A stretch of DNA of 64,000 bases from an uncultured Opitutales bacterium (GTDB lineage: Bacteria > Verrucomicrobiota > Verrucomicrobiia > Opitutales > Intestinicryptomonadaceae). Positions 1,925 through 8,946 of this stretch are shown here, in pieces. Below the pieces are notes generated by a model, which was not told the DNA's origin, ran no database searches, and saw only the letters and a list, made by a program, of their open reading frames with translations. Position numbers and translations under genes: made by a program. Positions within the stretch are counted from its first letter, which is position 1. Every line of letters starts with the position of its first letter. Location: assembly GCA_944389195.1 (NCBI GenBank), contig CALXLM010000008.1, positions 1 through 64,000 of the forward strand. Direction: 5' to 3'.

Positions 1925-3241
1925 ATGAAAAATATTCCGCCAGAATTTAAGGGAATTGAAGATTTTCTATACGCATTGAGAAATGCGGGGTCAAAATATT
2001 CGCTCGAACGCATATCTTCCCTGTGCGCCGCTCTTGGGAACCCCCAAGTCGCCTATCCTAAGATACACGTGGCGGGCACAAACGGCAAAGGGTCGGTTTG
2101 CGCCATGCTTGAAAGGATATTGCGCGGAATCGGGGCCAAGGTCGGCATGTTTACGTCACCGCATCTGACATATCTTGGCGAGCGCATTCAAATAGACAGG
2201 ATCCCGATGTGCAAACGCGATCTGGCAGCATGCGTTTGCGAGTTGAAAAATGTTGTCGAACGGATCTTTGAAGGCCGTGCTTTGGAGGACTATCCTTCGT
2301 TTTTTGAATATATGACTGCCATGGCATTTATGGAATTCGCCAGAAAACGTGCGGATTGCGCCGTCGTGGAGGTCGGCCTGGGCGGGAGGCTCGATTCCAC
2401 CAACATCATTGTCCCGGAGCTTTCCGTCATAACGTCGATAGGCTTCGACCATGTGAATATGTTAGGTTCCACCCTTTCGCAAATCGCCGGGGAAAAGGCG
2501 GGAATTATAAAGGAGGGAGTTCCCGTGGTTTGCGGCTTTCTGCCCGGAGAGGCGGCTGAGACGGTTTCAGAAATCGCGCGCGCTAAAAATTCTCCTATTT
2601 ACATGGCTTCCGAATTTTTTAGCTCCGATTCCGATTTGCCCGAAACGTCGCTTTACGGATATTATCAGCGCAGGAACGCCGCCACCGCCGTTTTATGCGC
2701 GCGCGTATTGCGCGAACGTTCCCTTGCGGGAAAGGCTTCGCGGCTATTTTGCGGGCTTTCCGACAATTTGGTCAGATCGGCACTTTTGGACGTTTCATGG
2801 CCTGCGCGCTGGCAAAAAATACCGCTGAGCAACGGCGCCACGCTTATTCTGGACGCCTCCCACAACGAGGAGGGCGCTCGCTCTCTCGAGAGTAATCTTC
2901 TTTTGTCCGGTTTAAATCGTCCGGTCGTGGCGGTGGGCGTACTTGGGGAGGAACGCGCGGTTCCGTTGCTGAAAGTCGTGGCAAAATATGCCGGAAAGAT
3001 TATTTTGCTCGTTCCAAAGCAGCCGCGCGCTTTGGGCTTTGACGCGCTGCGGAAGTGTTTGGGAAAATGCGGCGTGGAGGTCATTAACGGCGAAGTTTCG
3101 GAGATATTCGGAAGCGGAAATTCTTGCACTGCAGTCGGTCGCGGCGAAACGATAGTTTCCACGGGTTCTATTTACCTTGCTGGCGAAATCATGGCTGCTC
3201 TGTCTGGCGGAACCGCCGACAACATGCAAGATATTCCTTAA
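1925..3241 (+). CDS. folC: Bifunctional folylpolyglutamate synthase/dihydrofolate synthase
   Basis: Mur-ligase-family enzyme that adds glutamate to (dihydro)folates, acting in the cytoplasm. The P-loop GTNGKGS is at residues 51-57. The conserved VEVGLGGRLDSTN and the following TSIGFDHVNMLG region match FolC, as does a C-terminal ligase domain with LDASHNEEG. I chose ATG 1925 because GGAG (1914-1917) lies 7 nt upstream and the protein then starts like other FolC proteins; the reading frame is open from a possible earlier ATG at 1892. The 438-residue length is normal. It is followed by a 67-bp gap and the DUF1549 operon. Confidence 0.95.
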   Translation: MKNIPPEFKGIEDFLYALRNAGSKYSLERISSLCAALGNPQVAYPKIHVAGTNGKGSVCAMLERILRGIGAKVGMFTSPHLTYLGERIQIDRIPMCKRDLAACVCELKNVVERIFEGRALEDYPSFFEYMTAMAFMEFARKRADCAVVEVGLGGRLDSTNIIVPELSVITSIGFDHVNMLGSTLSQIAGEKAGIIKEGVPVVCGFLPGEAAETVSEIARAKNSPIYMASEFFSSDSDLPETSLYGYYQRRNAATAVLCARVLRERSLAGKASRLFCGLSDNLVRSALLDVSWPARWQKIPLSNGATLILDASHNEEGARSLESNLLLSGLNRPVVAVGVLGEERAVPLLKVVAKYAGKIILLVPKQPRALGFDALRKCLGKCGVEVINGEVSEIFGSGNSCTAVGRGETIVSTGSIYLAGEIMAALSGGTADNMQDIP

Positions 3242-3308: not shown

Positions 3309-5036
3309 ATGCGGATTGTGAGGATTGCTGCTGTTTTGTCATGCGCCTGCCTGGCATGCGGACTTGTCGGCGCGCCTTCTGGCGTTTCGGTTAAGGAGGC
3401 TGTTAAGCAGCCCGCCGCCAAAGCGGATTTGAAGCCCGAAAAAAAACCTCAAAAAGACGGCGGAGATTTGCCGAAAAAAAACGCCGGAGTGGAAAAAACT
3501 GGCAAGGGTGCTTCCGCAAAAGAGGCTTGCAAAACGGCTCCGGACGTTTCGCCGTACGAATCCGGGGCGGAGTTTGTCGCTGTAAACAAAATAGACGAGA
3601 TTGTGGCCAGGAACCTGAAGCTGCGCGGCTTAAAGCCGGCCGGATTGTCCTCCGATGCGGTGTTTTTGAGGCGGGCATACATAGACGTTCTCGGGACTAT
3701 CCCGGACGAAAAATCCGCGCGGAAGTTTATTGCGGACGCGTCGAAAGACAAGCGGAAACGCCTTGTAAAGTCGCTTTTATCATCGGAGGGTTACGCAGTC
3801 CGCATGGCGCAGCGATTCGGCGACGTTTTTCGCATAAAAGCCGAATTCCCGATAAATTTATGGCCTAATGCGGCGCAGGCTTATACTCGCTTTGTTTTTG
3901 ATTCCCTCAACGGCGACATGCCGTACGACGTTATGGTAAGGCGGATTTTAACTTCAGAGGGAAGCAACTTCAGGGTAGGCGAAGTCAACTTTTTCCGCGC
4001 TATGCAGTCTAAGAACGCCGCTTCCATAGCGTCGAACATAGCATTGTCGTTTATGGGAATGCGCTTTGAAAAAATGCCGGAATCCATGCGCGTAAATATG
4101 GCGGCGTTTTTCGAGCGCGTGGCCTATAAATCGACAAAGGAGTGGAAGGAGGAGATAGTCTTTTACGACCCCACGAAACGCGCTCCGTTTTCTGGAACCC
4201 TTCCCGACGGAACGGCGGTGCGCCTTTCATCGTCCGAAGATCCGCGCGCGGCTTTTGCGGACTGGCTGACGAAAAAAGGGAATCCGTATTTTTCGCGCGC
4301 TGTTGCGAACAGGATGTGGTATTGGATTTTCGGGCAGCCCATAGTGTCGCCTGTGGACGATATGTTTGCCGAAAACCCGCCGGCGAACAGGGAGCTTTTG
4401 GACCATCTTGCGGGATATCTCGAGTCTAACGGTTTCAGCCTAAAAAAATTGGCGGCCTATATTTTGAATTCGCGCACGTACCAGCAGTCGCCTATACCGC
4501 GGTGCGATTCCGGAGATGCGAGGAAATATTTTGCGGTTTATCCTGTGAGAAGAATGGACGCAGAAGTGCTGATAGACGTCATATGCAAACTTACGGGAAG
4601 CGCGGAAATATACGAGAGCACAACTCCGGAGCCTTACACTAAATTTCCCGCGGGGGAAAGCGCCGTGGCCATGCCGGACGGCAGTGTGACAACATCGTTT
4701 CTCGAACTTTTCGGCAAGCCTTCACGCGATACCGGTCTCGATTCGGAGCGTGTAAACGCGCCTTCAGCCTCCCAAAAACTGCACATGATAAACTCGTGGC
4801 ATATCAGGGTTAAGTTGGAAAGCGGCGAGCCCATGCGCGCTCTCTATGCGCGGGGCAAGCATAAATTTTTGGAGGGGGCGTATCTTGCGTTTTATTCGCG
4901 CTATCCCACAGAGGCGGAAAAAAAGAACTTTAACAACATGCGTTTGAAGCGCTCCCAAAAGGAAAAGTATTATATACATTACCTCGACACAGCATGGGCA
5001 TTGCTAAATTCGGAGGAATTTATAAACAACCACTAA
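3309..5036 (+). CDS. Secreted DUF1549/DUF1553 protein lacking the usual Cys/His motif
   Basis: 575 residues. Signal peptide (MRIVRIAAVLSCACLACGLVGA), then a Lys/Pro/Ala-rich low-complexity linker (about 25-80), a DUF1549 domain (about 85-270: FLRRAYIDVLGTIPDEKSARKF and so on) and a DUF1553 domain (about 310-575: NPYFSRAVANRMWYWIFGQP to WALLNSEEFINNH). Such proteins are abundant in Planctomycetes and Verrucomicrobia next to DUF1501 proteins, and their biochemical role is unproven. The family normally has a cytochrome-like C-x-x-C-H stretch at the end of DUF1549; here the region reads SFMGMRFEKMPESMRVN, with no Cys or His. No N-terminal cytochrome c domain is present. Start ATG 3309 is set by GGAGG at 3298 and the signal peptide. 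The DUF1501 gene follows after 4 nt. Confidence 0.88.
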   Translation: MRIVRIAAVLSCACLACGLVGAPSGVSVKEAVKQPAAKADLKPEKKPQKDGGDLPKKNAGVEKTGKGASAKEACKTAPDVSPYESGAEFVAVNKIDEIVARNLKLRGLKPAGLSSDAVFLRRAYIDVLGTIPDEKSARKFIADASKDKRKRLVKSLLSSEGYAVRMAQRFGDVFRIKAEFPINLWPNAAQAYTRFVFDSLNGDMPYDVMVRRILTSEGSNFRVGEVNFFRAMQSKNAASIASNIALSFMGMRFEKMPESMRVNMAAFFERVAYKSTKEWKEEIVFYDPTKRAPFSGTLPDGTAVRLSSSEDPRAAFADWLTKKGNPYFSRAVANRMWYWIFGQPIVSPVDDMFAENPPANRELLDHLAGYLESNGFSLKKLAAYILNSRTYQQSPIPRCDSGDARKYFAVYPVRRMDAEVLIDVICKLTGSAEIYESTTPEPYTKFPAGESAVAMPDGSVTTSFLELFGKPSRDTGLDSERVNAPSASQKLHMINSWHIRVKLESGEPMRALYARGKHKFLEGAYLAFYSRYPTEAEKKNFNNMRLKRSQKEKYYIHYLDTAWALLNSEEFINNH

Positions 5037-5040
5037 CGAC

Positions 5041-6396
5041 ATGAAAAAAATTAAAAAAGGAGCGGGAATTTCCAGACGCGGATTTTTGTCCGGGGTTTCC
5101 AAGGCGTGCGTTGCCGCCGGATTGGGGGTGTATGCGCTTGAGCGCTCGGCCGCCGCAGCCGAGAAGGCCGCCCGTCCAAAATCGTTCGGGAAGGCAAAGG
5201 CGGTGATTCAACTTTGGATATGGGGCGGGCCGTGCCAAATAGACACTTTCGACCCCAAGCCCGGCGCCGGCTACGATTATTGCGGGCCGTTGGCGAATCC
5301 GATACCGACAAACGTTGACGGAATCATGATAGGCCAGCTTTTGCCGAATCTGGCGAAATGCGCCGACAAGTATTCGCTTTTGCGCAGCTTATCCCACGGG
5401 CAGGGCGCGCACGAAACGGCCGCATATCTGACTCAGACGGGGCGTATGCCGGGGCGTTATGTTTTCCCGTGCGCGGGCGCGGTTGTGTCCAAATTCAAGG
5501 GGTACGATTCCGGGTATTCGAAAATGATCCCACCTTATATCGTAATGACGACGCCGCAGGGCAGGTTTTCCGAATCCGGGTTTTTGGGGAACAAATACAA
5601 GCCTTTTGCGACGGGCGGAGATCCGGGCCGCGTTCCGTTCGAAGTCGAGGGAATTGTTGCGCGGGGTATATCACGCAAAAGGCAGGAAATTAGGCGGGAC
5701 ATACTGGCTTCGACAAACACTTTCAACCTCGCCATGGCTTCGAGCGGCTATTTGAAGAAATCGGACGAAGCCGTAGAGCAGGCCTATAATCTTGTTCTCG
5801 GCGATGCCGGGCAGGTCTTCGACGTGTCCAAAGAACCGGATTCCATACGCCAGGAATACGGCCGCGACAGGTTCGCCAATTCCTGCCTCATAGCGCGCAG
5901 ACTTGTGGAGTACGGGGTGCCTTATATTACGATAAACTACGGGGGTTGGGACACCCATAAGGGGCATTTTGAGGCTATGAACAGAATGCTGCCGCCGACG
6001 GACAAGGCGGTTGCCGCGCTCATAAACGATTTGGACAGGCGCGGGCTTCTCGATTCAACGATAGTATGGATGACGGGAGAGTTCGGACGCACTCCGAAAA
6101 TAGATTGGGCGCCTCCGTATTGCGGCGGGAGGGGCCATTGGGGAGAGGCATTTTCTCAGCTGATTGCCGGCGGCGGATTCAAAGGAGGGGTAGTTGTGGG
6201 AAAAACCGACGAGCGGGGAGAGCGCGTCGTCGAAAGACCCATTTCGCCCGGCGACGTTATCGGAAGCATATATTCAAATCTCGGCATAGATCCTGACGCC
6301 ACTCTTACAACCCCGCAAGCCGATATTGTGCGGATTGTCCCGGATAAGCCCGAAGAGGGCATAGTTTCCGGGGGGCTTCTTACGGAAATAATGTAA
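5041..6396 (+). CDS. DUF1501 family protein, Tat-exported
   Basis: 451 residues. The N-terminus ISRRGFLSGVSKACVAAG is a twin-arginine signal, so the protein is probably folded before export. The DUF1501 core (sulfatase/alkaline-phosphatase-like fold) is shown by LWIWGGPCQIDTFDPKP, the HGQGAHETAAYLTQTG stretch, YGGWDTHKGHFEAM and WMTGEFGRTPKI. Members pair with DUF1549/DUF1553 proteins throughout PVC bacteria; substrate is unknown. It is the second gene of a tight three-gene operon: 4 nt after the DUF1549 gene, and the next ATG starts directly after its stop. Length and motifs look intact. Confidence 0.92.
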   Translation: MKKIKKGAGISRRGFLSGVSKACVAAGLGVYALERSAAAAEKAARPKSFGKAKAVIQLWIWGGPCQIDTFDPKPGAGYDYCGPLANPIPTNVDGIMIGQLLPNLAKCADKYSLLRSLSHGQGAHETAAYLTQTGRMPGRYVFPCAGAVVSKFKGYDSGYSKMIPPYIVMTTPQGRFSESGFLGNKYKPFATGGDPGRVPFEVEGIVARGISRKRQEIRRDILASTNTFNLAMASSGYLKKSDEAVEQAYNLVLGDAGQVFDVSKEPDSIRQEYGRDRFANSCLIARRLVEYGVPYITINYGGWDTHKGHFEAMNRMLPPTDKAVAALINDLDRRGLLDSTIVWMTGEFGRTPKIDWAPPYCGGRGHWGEAFSQLIAGGGFKGGVVVGKTDERGERVVERPISPGDVIGSIYSNLGIDPDATLTTPQADIVRIVPDKPEEGIVSGGLLTEIM

Positions 6397-8946
6397 ATGG
6401 TCATGAAAGCCTTTAAAACAACGGTGTTTCTGCGTTTTTTTTGCGCGGCGTTTTTTTTCGCCGGCGCTTATGCGCAGGAGCTTAGTTCTCCCAACATAGC
6501 ATATGTGTATCCGGCGGGTGGGCAGCGCGGAAGCGTTTTTAAAATGACGATAGGGGGAAGCAAGTTCAGTGGGGTTGACAGAATATTTTTCAGCACGCCT
6601 TCTATAAGCGCAAAAATTTTGGAGCTGACGATACCCTTTACGGAGGGGCAGCGGGCACAGTTGAGAATGAAACTTGAAAAGGAGTACATTCTCTCAAATC
6701 CCGGCATGAAAGAAAAAATCGAGGCCATGGGCAAGGACGGACAAGCTTTTCTTCGCCGTAAGACCATGGAGATCCCCGAAAACAAAAATCAAATATACGA
6801 GGCCGACGCGTCAGAATATTTGAGGGTGGTGTCCACCGACGCCATGGCGGACACCGTCGAGATAGAGGTTTCCGTGGCTCTGGACGCTCCGCTCGGAATC
6901 TACAGCGTCATGTTGGCGGGGCCCAACGGGATTTCGAATCCGGCAAAAATTTCCATTTCCGACCTTCCGGAAAAATCGAAACAGTCTTTGCGCAGAACCG
7001 CCTACGAAAGGGCGAGGACAAAGGAGTATTGGGGAAGGGCGGTTGCGCGGGCGCGCTGGCCGAAAACTTTTGTCAAGCCGGGGAACAACGAGCCGGTTGA
7101 CGTGGATCTTCCGGTCATCGTGAACGGCCAAATAACGGAGGGCAATACGGATTTTTGGAGGTTCAAGGCTAAAAAAGGCCAAAAAATTGTAATGTCGGTT
7201 TCGGCGCAGTCGCTGCTTCCATACATATCCGACGCCGTTCCAGGCTGGTTTCAGACCGCTTTAAGGGTGAGAAATTCAAAGGGCGAGGAGCTGGCGTATA
7301 ACGACGATTTTTACCATAGGCCGGATTCCCATCTCGTTTTCGATGTTCCCGCAGACGGCGAGTATTGCGTGGAAATATTCGACGCGGTGCACAGGGGGCG
7401 CGAGGACTTTGTTTATCGGCTTTTAATAGGCGAGGTGCCGTTTGTAGAATCGGTTTTCCCGCTCGGGGTCGTCGCCGGCGAGACTTGCGAGGTCGAGCTA
7501 AACGGCGTGAATTTGCGCGAAAAAACAGCCCGCATTGCGCGCGGAATGCGCGGCGAGTTCGAGTTCGAATATTCGAAGGCATACCACAACAGAATTCCGC
7601 TGGATTCCGGAGGGCATTCTGTAATGTCGGCGGTCGAATCGGCGCGCAGGGAGGGAAAAAAATATGGAGGGGCGGCGCAGGAGCTGACTATTCCGGCGCT
7701 TGTTGACGGGCGCATCGTTGAAAAAAACCAGACCGACATATTCAAATTCGACTTGGTTCACGGCAAAAAGGTGGTGATAGAAACTTTTGCGCGCCGCCTC
7801 GACTCGCCTCTTGACACTTATCTCGTGCTGACCGATTCCAACGGGAAAATATTGGCCAGCGCCGACGATTTCGAAGACCTTTCGCGTGGATATGTCACCC
7901 ACCACGCCGATTCGCGAATGGAGTTTGTGGCTCCGGCAACCGGAACATATATCTTGAGGCTTACGGACGCTTCGGGACAGTATTCTGACTCCCATTCATA
8001 CAGGCTTTCCATAAGCCACGGCAGGGGTGATTTTACAGTTGTCGCCTCTCCCAGCGTGCTGAATATGAGAAACGGCGGAAGCGCCGCGATAAAACTTAAG
8101 GCTTTTCGACGCAACGGATTTGACGGGCCGATATCGGTGGAGCTTAAGAACCTCCCGAACGACTGGAAGTATTACGGCGGAAAAATCGAGAGCGGCTCTG
8201 ACGAGGGAGAAATAGTGGTAACGGCCTCCCCTAAAACCGGTAAAAAAATTTTGCCGTTCCGCGCTGTGGCGACGTCTCATATAAACGGGTGGAAAACTTC
8301 GCGCAAGGTTGTCCCGAGCGAGGATATGATGCAGGCGTTTTATTATCGGCATTATGTGCCGTTCGAATCGTTTTACGCGTGCTCGGGGAACGACGGGGGA
8401 CATTTGCAATGGTTTAGGCACTTAAGAATAGAGCCTCCGAAAGATTTGCTCAAAATACCGCTCGGCAAGTCCGCTTCCGTGAGGATAGCGAGTTTCTCCA
8501 TGCGCAACGCGAGCCGCCTTGTAGGCGCCGTGTCGGGTACTGATAAACTTTCAGCGGCGGGATTTTTCGCAAAGAAAAACGACTTTTTTGCCGTTATCAA
8601 GGCCGATTCAAAAACGGCAAAAGTCGGCGACAAGGGCGAGTTTACGCTCGTTATGAATATGAAGGTCGGCAGAAAGATTTTCAATATCGACAGGGTGCCC
8701 GGCATAAAATTCGAAATTGTGGACGCCAACGCGCAGCCCAATGCGGGGAAAAAAGCTGGAAACAGTGGCGCTAAAAAAGATACAAAGCCCAAAGCAGCTA
8801 AAGATAAGGGCGGCGCGGAGAGTTCGAAAGGCAAAAGCGCGGCTAAAACGTCGAAGAATAAAGACAATACGGAAACGGGCGGCAAAAATGGCGGATCTGC
8901 AAAAAATTCTCAAGGGGGCTCAAAGTCGGCGCCGTCGGGAAAATAG
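6397..8946 (+). CDS. Secreted PPC-domain protein with basic low-complexity tail
   Basis: 849 residues with a signal peptide (about 1-26, cleavage near AYAQE). An N-terminal IPT/TIG-like beta region (YVYPAGGQRGSVFKMTIGG) is followed by two pre-peptidase C-terminal (PPC) beta domains, near 235-340 and 440-545, with motifs such as SYRLSISHG and DTYLVLTDSNG. The last 65 or so residues are almost only Lys, Ala, Gly, Ser and Asn. The third member of PSD1/DUF1501 clusters is often such a PPC protein, probably a surface or substrate-binding component. The start codon abuts the DUF1501 stop; MKAF two codons later is an alternative start. The tail resembles the Lys-rich linker of the first gene, hinting at a shared binding partner such as an acidic polysaccharide (inference). 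Confidence 0.85.
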   Translation: MVMKAFKTTVFLRFFCAAFFFAGAYAQELSSPNIAYVYPAGGQRGSVFKMTIGGSKFSGVDRIFFSTPSISAKILELTIPFTEGQRAQLRMKLEKEYILSNPGMKEKIEAMGKDGQAFLRRKTMEIPENKNQIYEADASEYLRVVSTDAMADTVEIEVSVALDAPLGIYSVMLAGPNGISNPAKISISDLPEKSKQSLRRTAYERARTKEYWGRAVARARWPKTFVKPGNNEPVDVDLPVIVNGQITEGNTDFWRFKAKKGQKIVMSVSAQSLLPYISDAVPGWFQTALRVRNSKGEELAYNDDFYHRPDSHLVFDVPADGEYCVEIFDAVHRGREDFVYRLLIGEVPFVESVFPLGVVAGETCEVELNGVNLREKTARIARGMRGEFEFEYSKAYHNRIPLDSGGHSVMSAVESARREGKKYGGAAQELTIPALVDGRIVEKNQTDIFKFDLVHGKKVVIETFARRLDSPLDTYLVLTDSNGKILASADDFEDLSRGYVTHHADSRMEFVAPATGTYILRLTDASGQYSDSHSYRLSISHGRGDFTVVASPSVLNMRNGGSAAIKLKAFRRNGFDGPISVELKNLPNDWKYYGGKIESGSDEGEIVVTASPKTGKKILPFRAVATSHINGWKTSRKVVPSEDMMQAFYYRHYVPFESFYACSGNDGGHLQWFRHLRIEPPKDLLKIPLGKSASVRIASFSMRNASRLVGAVSGTDKLSAAGFFAKKNDFFAVIKADSKTAKVGDKGEFTLVMNMKVGRKIFNIDRVPGIKFEIVDANAQPNAGKKAGNSGAKKDTKPKAAKDKGGAESSKGKSAAKTSKNKDNTETGGKNGGSAKNSQGGSKSAPSGK

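Follow-up and report, generated by a model that had tools for sequence, protein, structure and literature searches.

The 64,000-nucleotide stretch of DNA analysed here (the window), which comes from an uncultured Opitutales bacterium, carries what is probably (at roughly 60%) one copy of a widespread haem-free DUF1549/DUF1553-DUF1501-PPC branch, forming an exported ester hydrolase/transferase module with no need of haem. The loop deletion in the first protein of this trio is not peculiar to the source genome; it is the hallmark of a haem-free family branch that is old and widespread and that, in the sampled genomes, is the form present in almost all of those that lack an oxygen-using terminal oxidase. 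We found no description of this branch in an open-access library of papers. The one paper there that mentions both DUF1549 and DUF1553 suggests a redox function (PMC2754498).

Gene layout and the missing CxxCH loop

The three genes of the trio (Table 1) are separated by 4 bp (DUF1549/DUF1553 to DUF1501) and 0 bp (DUF1501 to the PPC gene), and their Pfam matches lie well above the curated cut-offs for PF07583 (DUF1549; 95.9 bits against 29.8, E 4e-27), PF07587 (DUF1553; 134.3 bits against 28.5, E 6e-39) and PF07394 (DUF1501; 316 bits against 27), with the PF07583 match covering only profile positions 1-148 of 209. The DUF1501 and PPC partners are thus intact and tightly spaced, as originally predicted. 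The same prediction described a minimal three-gene set, which is correct as to the three genes but is simply the standard layout of the Cys-less branch. The first gene starts with the ATG at 3309, with a TTG at 3177 as a possible alternative, and its product opens with a hydrophobic, signal-like helix followed by a Lys-rich linker. Lys-rich stretches had been noted in the first and third proteins and are indeed present, at residues ~33-75 of the former and in the C-terminal tail of the latter, but they have the look of gut-lineage linkers and tails of low complexity; the N-terminal linkers, which occur mainly in gut relatives (L047, L072, L185), are no family trait. The window's gene is the sole PF07583 gene in the 2.37 Mb source genome. 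Upstream of the trio, on the minus strand (425-1822), lies a gene for a 465-aa protein with an antibiotic biosynthesis monooxygenase (ABM) domain (E 3e-8), which is outside the module.

Table 1. Positions in the window of the three genes and of the deletion site.
Feature	Position	Strand	Description and basis
Cys-less DUF1549 (PSCyt2)/DUF1553 (PSD1) protein	3309-5036	+	575 aa; Pfam, alignment and AlphaFold model
SFMGMRFEKMPESMRVN, site of the deleted ~10-residue NCxxCHxHPF loop of CxxCH relatives	4047-4097	+	Residues 247-263; alignment
DUF1501 protein	5041-6396	+	451 aa; Tat-type SRRGFL signal; Pfam, alignment, model and PDB fold match
Two-PPC-domain protein, exported-looking	6397-8946	+	849 aa; Pfam; conserved third gene; Lys-rich low-complexity C-terminal tail

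At the site occupied by SFMGMRFEKMPESMRVN, aligned relatives read F-M/L-G-x-R-x-C-x-x-C-H-x-H-P-F. The alignment confirms both the absence of CxxCH and its predicted position, and identifies the change as a clean deletion of about 10 residues, between FMGxR and the next helix, with no substitution. The accompanying statement that no Cys or His is present holds for the motif region, where the closest cysteines are residues 74 and 399, but not for the whole protein, which contains 6 Cys and 6 His. Across 44 Cys-less proteins from several phyla 68 alignment columns are invariant, which argues that the Cys-less protein is functional. It is scarcely credible that we are looking at a decaying gene that has lost its active motif: the G012 homologue does lie in two frames, but the window holds a full-length open frame with intact partners, and the invariant columns extend across several phyla. 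The split G012 gene (L179, G012:C186) may reflect a frameshift or an assembly error.

Two further observations concern this protein. Its last residue (window 5031-5033) is a His, as in 148 of the 153 Cys-less proteins and in the near CxxCH relatives, and this residue is absent from both gut CxxCH proteins. Genome G160 encodes a C-A-E-C-K version (L192, G160:C2) in which the loop is kept and Lys replaces the haem-ligand His, together with a second, Cys-less copy (L137).

Spread and phylogeny of the Cys-less branch

Proteins with the deletion, mostly of 40-60% identity, occur in Verrucomicrobiota, Planctomycetota, Kiritimatiellota, Lentisphaerota, Armatimonadota and Acidobacteriota, and the gene order hardly ever differs. 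A genome-collection search returned relatives of 40-61% identity in records named as belonging to these phyla and to Omnitrophota, although the window's motif region was among its six patterns, which biases it towards Cys-less rows. A survey of 388 genomes of the phylum provides a less biased count. PF07583 was present in 145 of these; by hand tally, 93 genomes contained the Cys-less branch only, usually as one copy, and 43 contained full-length CxxCH proteins (best PF07583 E of 1e-60 or lower), often in many copies, with the motif class inferred from score and branch membership and the motif itself read directly in the fetched loci only. Of the Cys-less genes scored in the fetched loci, 71 had over 5 kb of sequence downstream, and 69 of these were adjoined by both a DUF1501 and a PPC gene; clustering of the neighbours in the fetched loci revealed no fourth recurring gene near the trio. 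Two other large neighbour clusters were rejected as module genes, resembling as they do antisense frames of the trio.

Compared with the planctomycete-specific cytochrome proteins PSCyt2/PSD1 (PF07583 plus PF07587), the Cys-less proteins share both Pfam domains above cut-off, in the same order, and a DUF1501 neighbour. They differ in lacking the CxxCH loop, in length (mostly about 520-650 aa, as opposed to about 750-1100), in copy number (usually one per genome, as opposed to many), in almost always being followed by a PPC gene and in occurring in oxidase-free genomes. A tight Cys-less subgroup (L163, L164, L165 and L166, from G196, G284, G097 and G413) has fused N-terminal regions of about 1000-1700 aa, with no Pfam match in the three tested; DUF1501 is the next gene in two of the four loci, and a PPC gene was found in none of the four within the scanned distance.

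The near relatives that carry names are Opitutales MAGs (L047, L048, L072, L117), presumably gut bacteria. No match to the first protein was found in 4 of the 13 other genomes of the genus (G001, G003, G008 and G010), so the trio is dispensable, being gained or lost within the genus.

The original prediction had asked whether Cys-less proteins form a clade, and in two trees, both built without the motif columns, they fall into one group. In the 70-row tree the Cys-less rows make up one side of a single branch (SH-aLRT 88), and the second tree (45 rows, 11 of them from the gut family) recovers the same split (SH-aLRT 89); support of 88-89 for a single clade is not decisive. Adjoining the Cys-less side are two CxxCH proteins from the window's own family (G002 and G015, which share its WKEEI motif) and the C-A-E-C-K protein of G160, with the canonical CxxCH proteins outside these. 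The 11 gut Cys-less rows form one group nested within the cross-phylum Cys-less group (97*).

Oxygen respiration and the question of loss

The two classes of genome differ markedly in their respiratory genes. A haem-copper oxidase (PF00115, COX1) was found in 42/43 genomes with full-length CxxCH proteins and in 12/93 Cys-less-only genomes, and cytochrome-c assembly (PF01578) in 43/43 and 39/93, respectively. Fisher tests gave p values of 5e-23 for the oxidase and 1e-12 for cytochrome-c assembly with genomes as units, which are not independent, as many of the Cys-less-only genomes come from few families; with families as units the oxidase figures are 9/10 against 4/24 (p 1e-4). This co-occurrence speaks for haem c binding by the CxxCH copies and for their place in respiring cells, and it agrees with published work in which upper-lake-layer genomes were richer in PSCyt genes, a pattern tied there to oxygen availability (PMC5615132).

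The Cys-less form is nevertheless not a mark of anaerobes, because all seven named genomes that carry the Cys-less trio, including Stieleria and Prosthecobacter, have the oxidase; each of these holds 19-79 PF07583 genes. The proposed tie to anaerobes therefore stands in part: having only the Cys-less form goes with lack of the oxidase, but oxidase-bearing genomes carry the trio too.

Of the two readings originally offered for the window, loss of redox function in an anaerobic lineage or a trio that acts without haem, the data favour the second, the trio being intact without the haem motif. No oxidase (PF00115) match was found in the source genome. That genome does encode a 643-aa cytochrome-c assembly protein, however, and three members of the same family (G002, G015 and G017) have kept CxxCH in the absence of the oxidase. 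Together with a deletion that spans several phyla and includes oxidase-bearing carriers, this argues against a recent loss in an anaerobe. A more specific version, in which a gut Opitutales ancestor with CxxCH (kept in G002, G015 and G017) lost the loop on becoming anaerobic, is unlikely. Its appeal is that CxxCH is found, together with the branch-typical WKEEI motif, in near kin belonging to the same genus and family. The CxxCH-bearing relatives are themselves without an oxidase, however, the window protein is only 37-39% identical to the gut CxxCH rows, and the cross-phylum group encloses the gut Cys-less rows. Constraining the tree to join the gut Cys-less and gut CxxCH rows cost 28 log units (p-AU 0.08), which speaks against a recent loss without formally rejecting it.

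Retention of the assembly gene might also suggest that the Cys-less protein is still redox-active and draws on a separate cytochrome for haem or electrons, and at one CxxCH locus (L171) the third protein does seem to have an N-terminal cytochrome-like C-x-x-C-H stretch. Against this, the trio has no recurring cytochrome neighbour and 54/93 Cys-less-only genomes have no cytochrome-c assembly match, which makes a separate cytochrome quite improbable.

DUF1501, DUF1800 and a model for the module

The predicted model of DUF1501 (pLDDT 85) has an alkaline-phosphatase/sulfatase-like fold. It gave 137 PDB matches with E <0.001, the best of which were LtaS and sulfatases (E 2e-7), at low TM-scores of about 0.4; within the trio this likeness concerns DUF1501 only. 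Sequence searches of solved structures returned no relative of either DUF1501 or the first protein. Arg12-Arg13 of the twin-arginine start are at least 90% conserved in the DUF1501 alignment, and H124, D304, H306, E347, R350 and H366 are conserved further on. H124, D304, H306, R350 and H366 recur in every DUF1501 protein compared, whether its partner is a Cys-less, a CxxCH or a DUF1800 protein, and E347 is present in all but one. By their conservation and order along the sequence, the invariant His, Asp and Glu residues are plausibly arranged as putative metal ligands. In contrast to the sulfatases, no C-x-P-x-R signature was seen in DUF1501, and no candidate for the superfamily's usual nucleophile was picked out.

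The AlphaFold model of the DUF1549/DUF1553 protein (pLDDT 85) found only chance fold matches among solved structures (best E 0.86). Profile comparison was more informative: the DUF1549/1553 profile matched DUF1800 with an E of 3e-6 (combined profile) or 1.6e-4 (Cys-less profile), against at least 0.025 for the controls (about a dozen independent shuffles plus three more). The similarity is distant and strongest over the DUF1553 half. A PF08811 (DUF1800) search also picked up a Cys-less gene of G218 (E 1.6e-4, under the cut-off), and the window protein has no PF08811 match over the curated cut-off. The DUF1800-DUF1501 system (PF08811/PF07394) likewise pairs a protein devoid of haem with a Tat-exported DUF1501 encoded immediately after it: DUF1501 lies directly downstream in 19 of 30 DUF1800 loci, and CxxCH is absent from every DUF1800 protein examined. 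It differs in that identity is only about 10%, its DUF1501 partner has a different site (G-G-x-D-G), and a third, PPC gene is not established there. The profile similarity and the shared gene order with DUF1501 support a kinship between DUF1549/1553 and DUF1800, as opposed to membership.

This kinship bears on the direction of change. The haem-free state may be ancestral, with a DUF1800-like protein and DUF1501 coming first and the CxxCH loop gained once, in a PVC branch that expanded in aerobes; the mechanism would be the one proposed below, and only the direction of change would differ. We consider this possible but doubtful. The DUF1800 similarity, the lack of CxxCH in DUF1800 and the common gene order all speak for it, and the trees are unrooted as to gain or loss of the loop; yet the deepest splits of the 70-row tree lie on the CxxCH side, and the C-A-E-C-K protein of G160, its loop retained, looks like decay.

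Whichever the direction, the likeliest role of the module is that of a metal-dependent ester hydrolase/transferase which is exported and works without haem. In this model all three proteins would be exported and act together. DUF1501, as the catalytic part, would leave the cell folded through the Tat pathway and, as an enzyme of the alkaline phosphatase/sulfatase superfamily, catalyse metal-dependent ester hydrolysis or transfer. The DUF1549/1553 protein would be its helical partner, taking the role that DUF1800 has in other bacteria, and the PPC protein would hold a polymer or the cell envelope. In the paralogues, the CxxCH loop would add haem c, coupling them to the respiratory chain. If the core function needs no haem, a cell that lacks an oxidase or cytochrome-c assembly could still make use of the haem-free form.

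The module may be linked to polysaccharide of the envelope or outside the cell, as hinted only by the predicted fold and by published neighbourhoods, namely a DUF1501-DUF1800 gene pair beside bacterial chitin synthases (PMC5122149) and sulfatases beside PSCyt genes (PMC5615132). Gene clusters with DUF1501 were also described by Kamneva 2012, as cited in PMC4452313. More tentatively, DUF1501 may have two kinds of helical partner, one haem-bearing (CxxCH DUF1549, with oxygen respiration) and one haem-free (Cys-less DUF1549/1553 and DUF1800), in which case haem would be an optional extra linking an exported ester-processing enzyme system to the respiratory chain, and its presence would predict a respiring, oxygen-using lifestyle.

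Few proteins of planctomycetes and verrucomicrobia are as amplified, or as poorly understood, as those with DUF1549, DUF1553 and DUF1501, and it is because of CxxCH that the literature takes the DUF1549/DUF1553 family for cytochromes. A branch without haem in which all else is conserved constitutes a natural control, and suggests that the core function does without redox chemistry. The Cys-less branch also offers small, single-copy systems in which this could be tested, and the comparison yields a sharp prediction, that the CxxCH copies depend on oxygen respiration.
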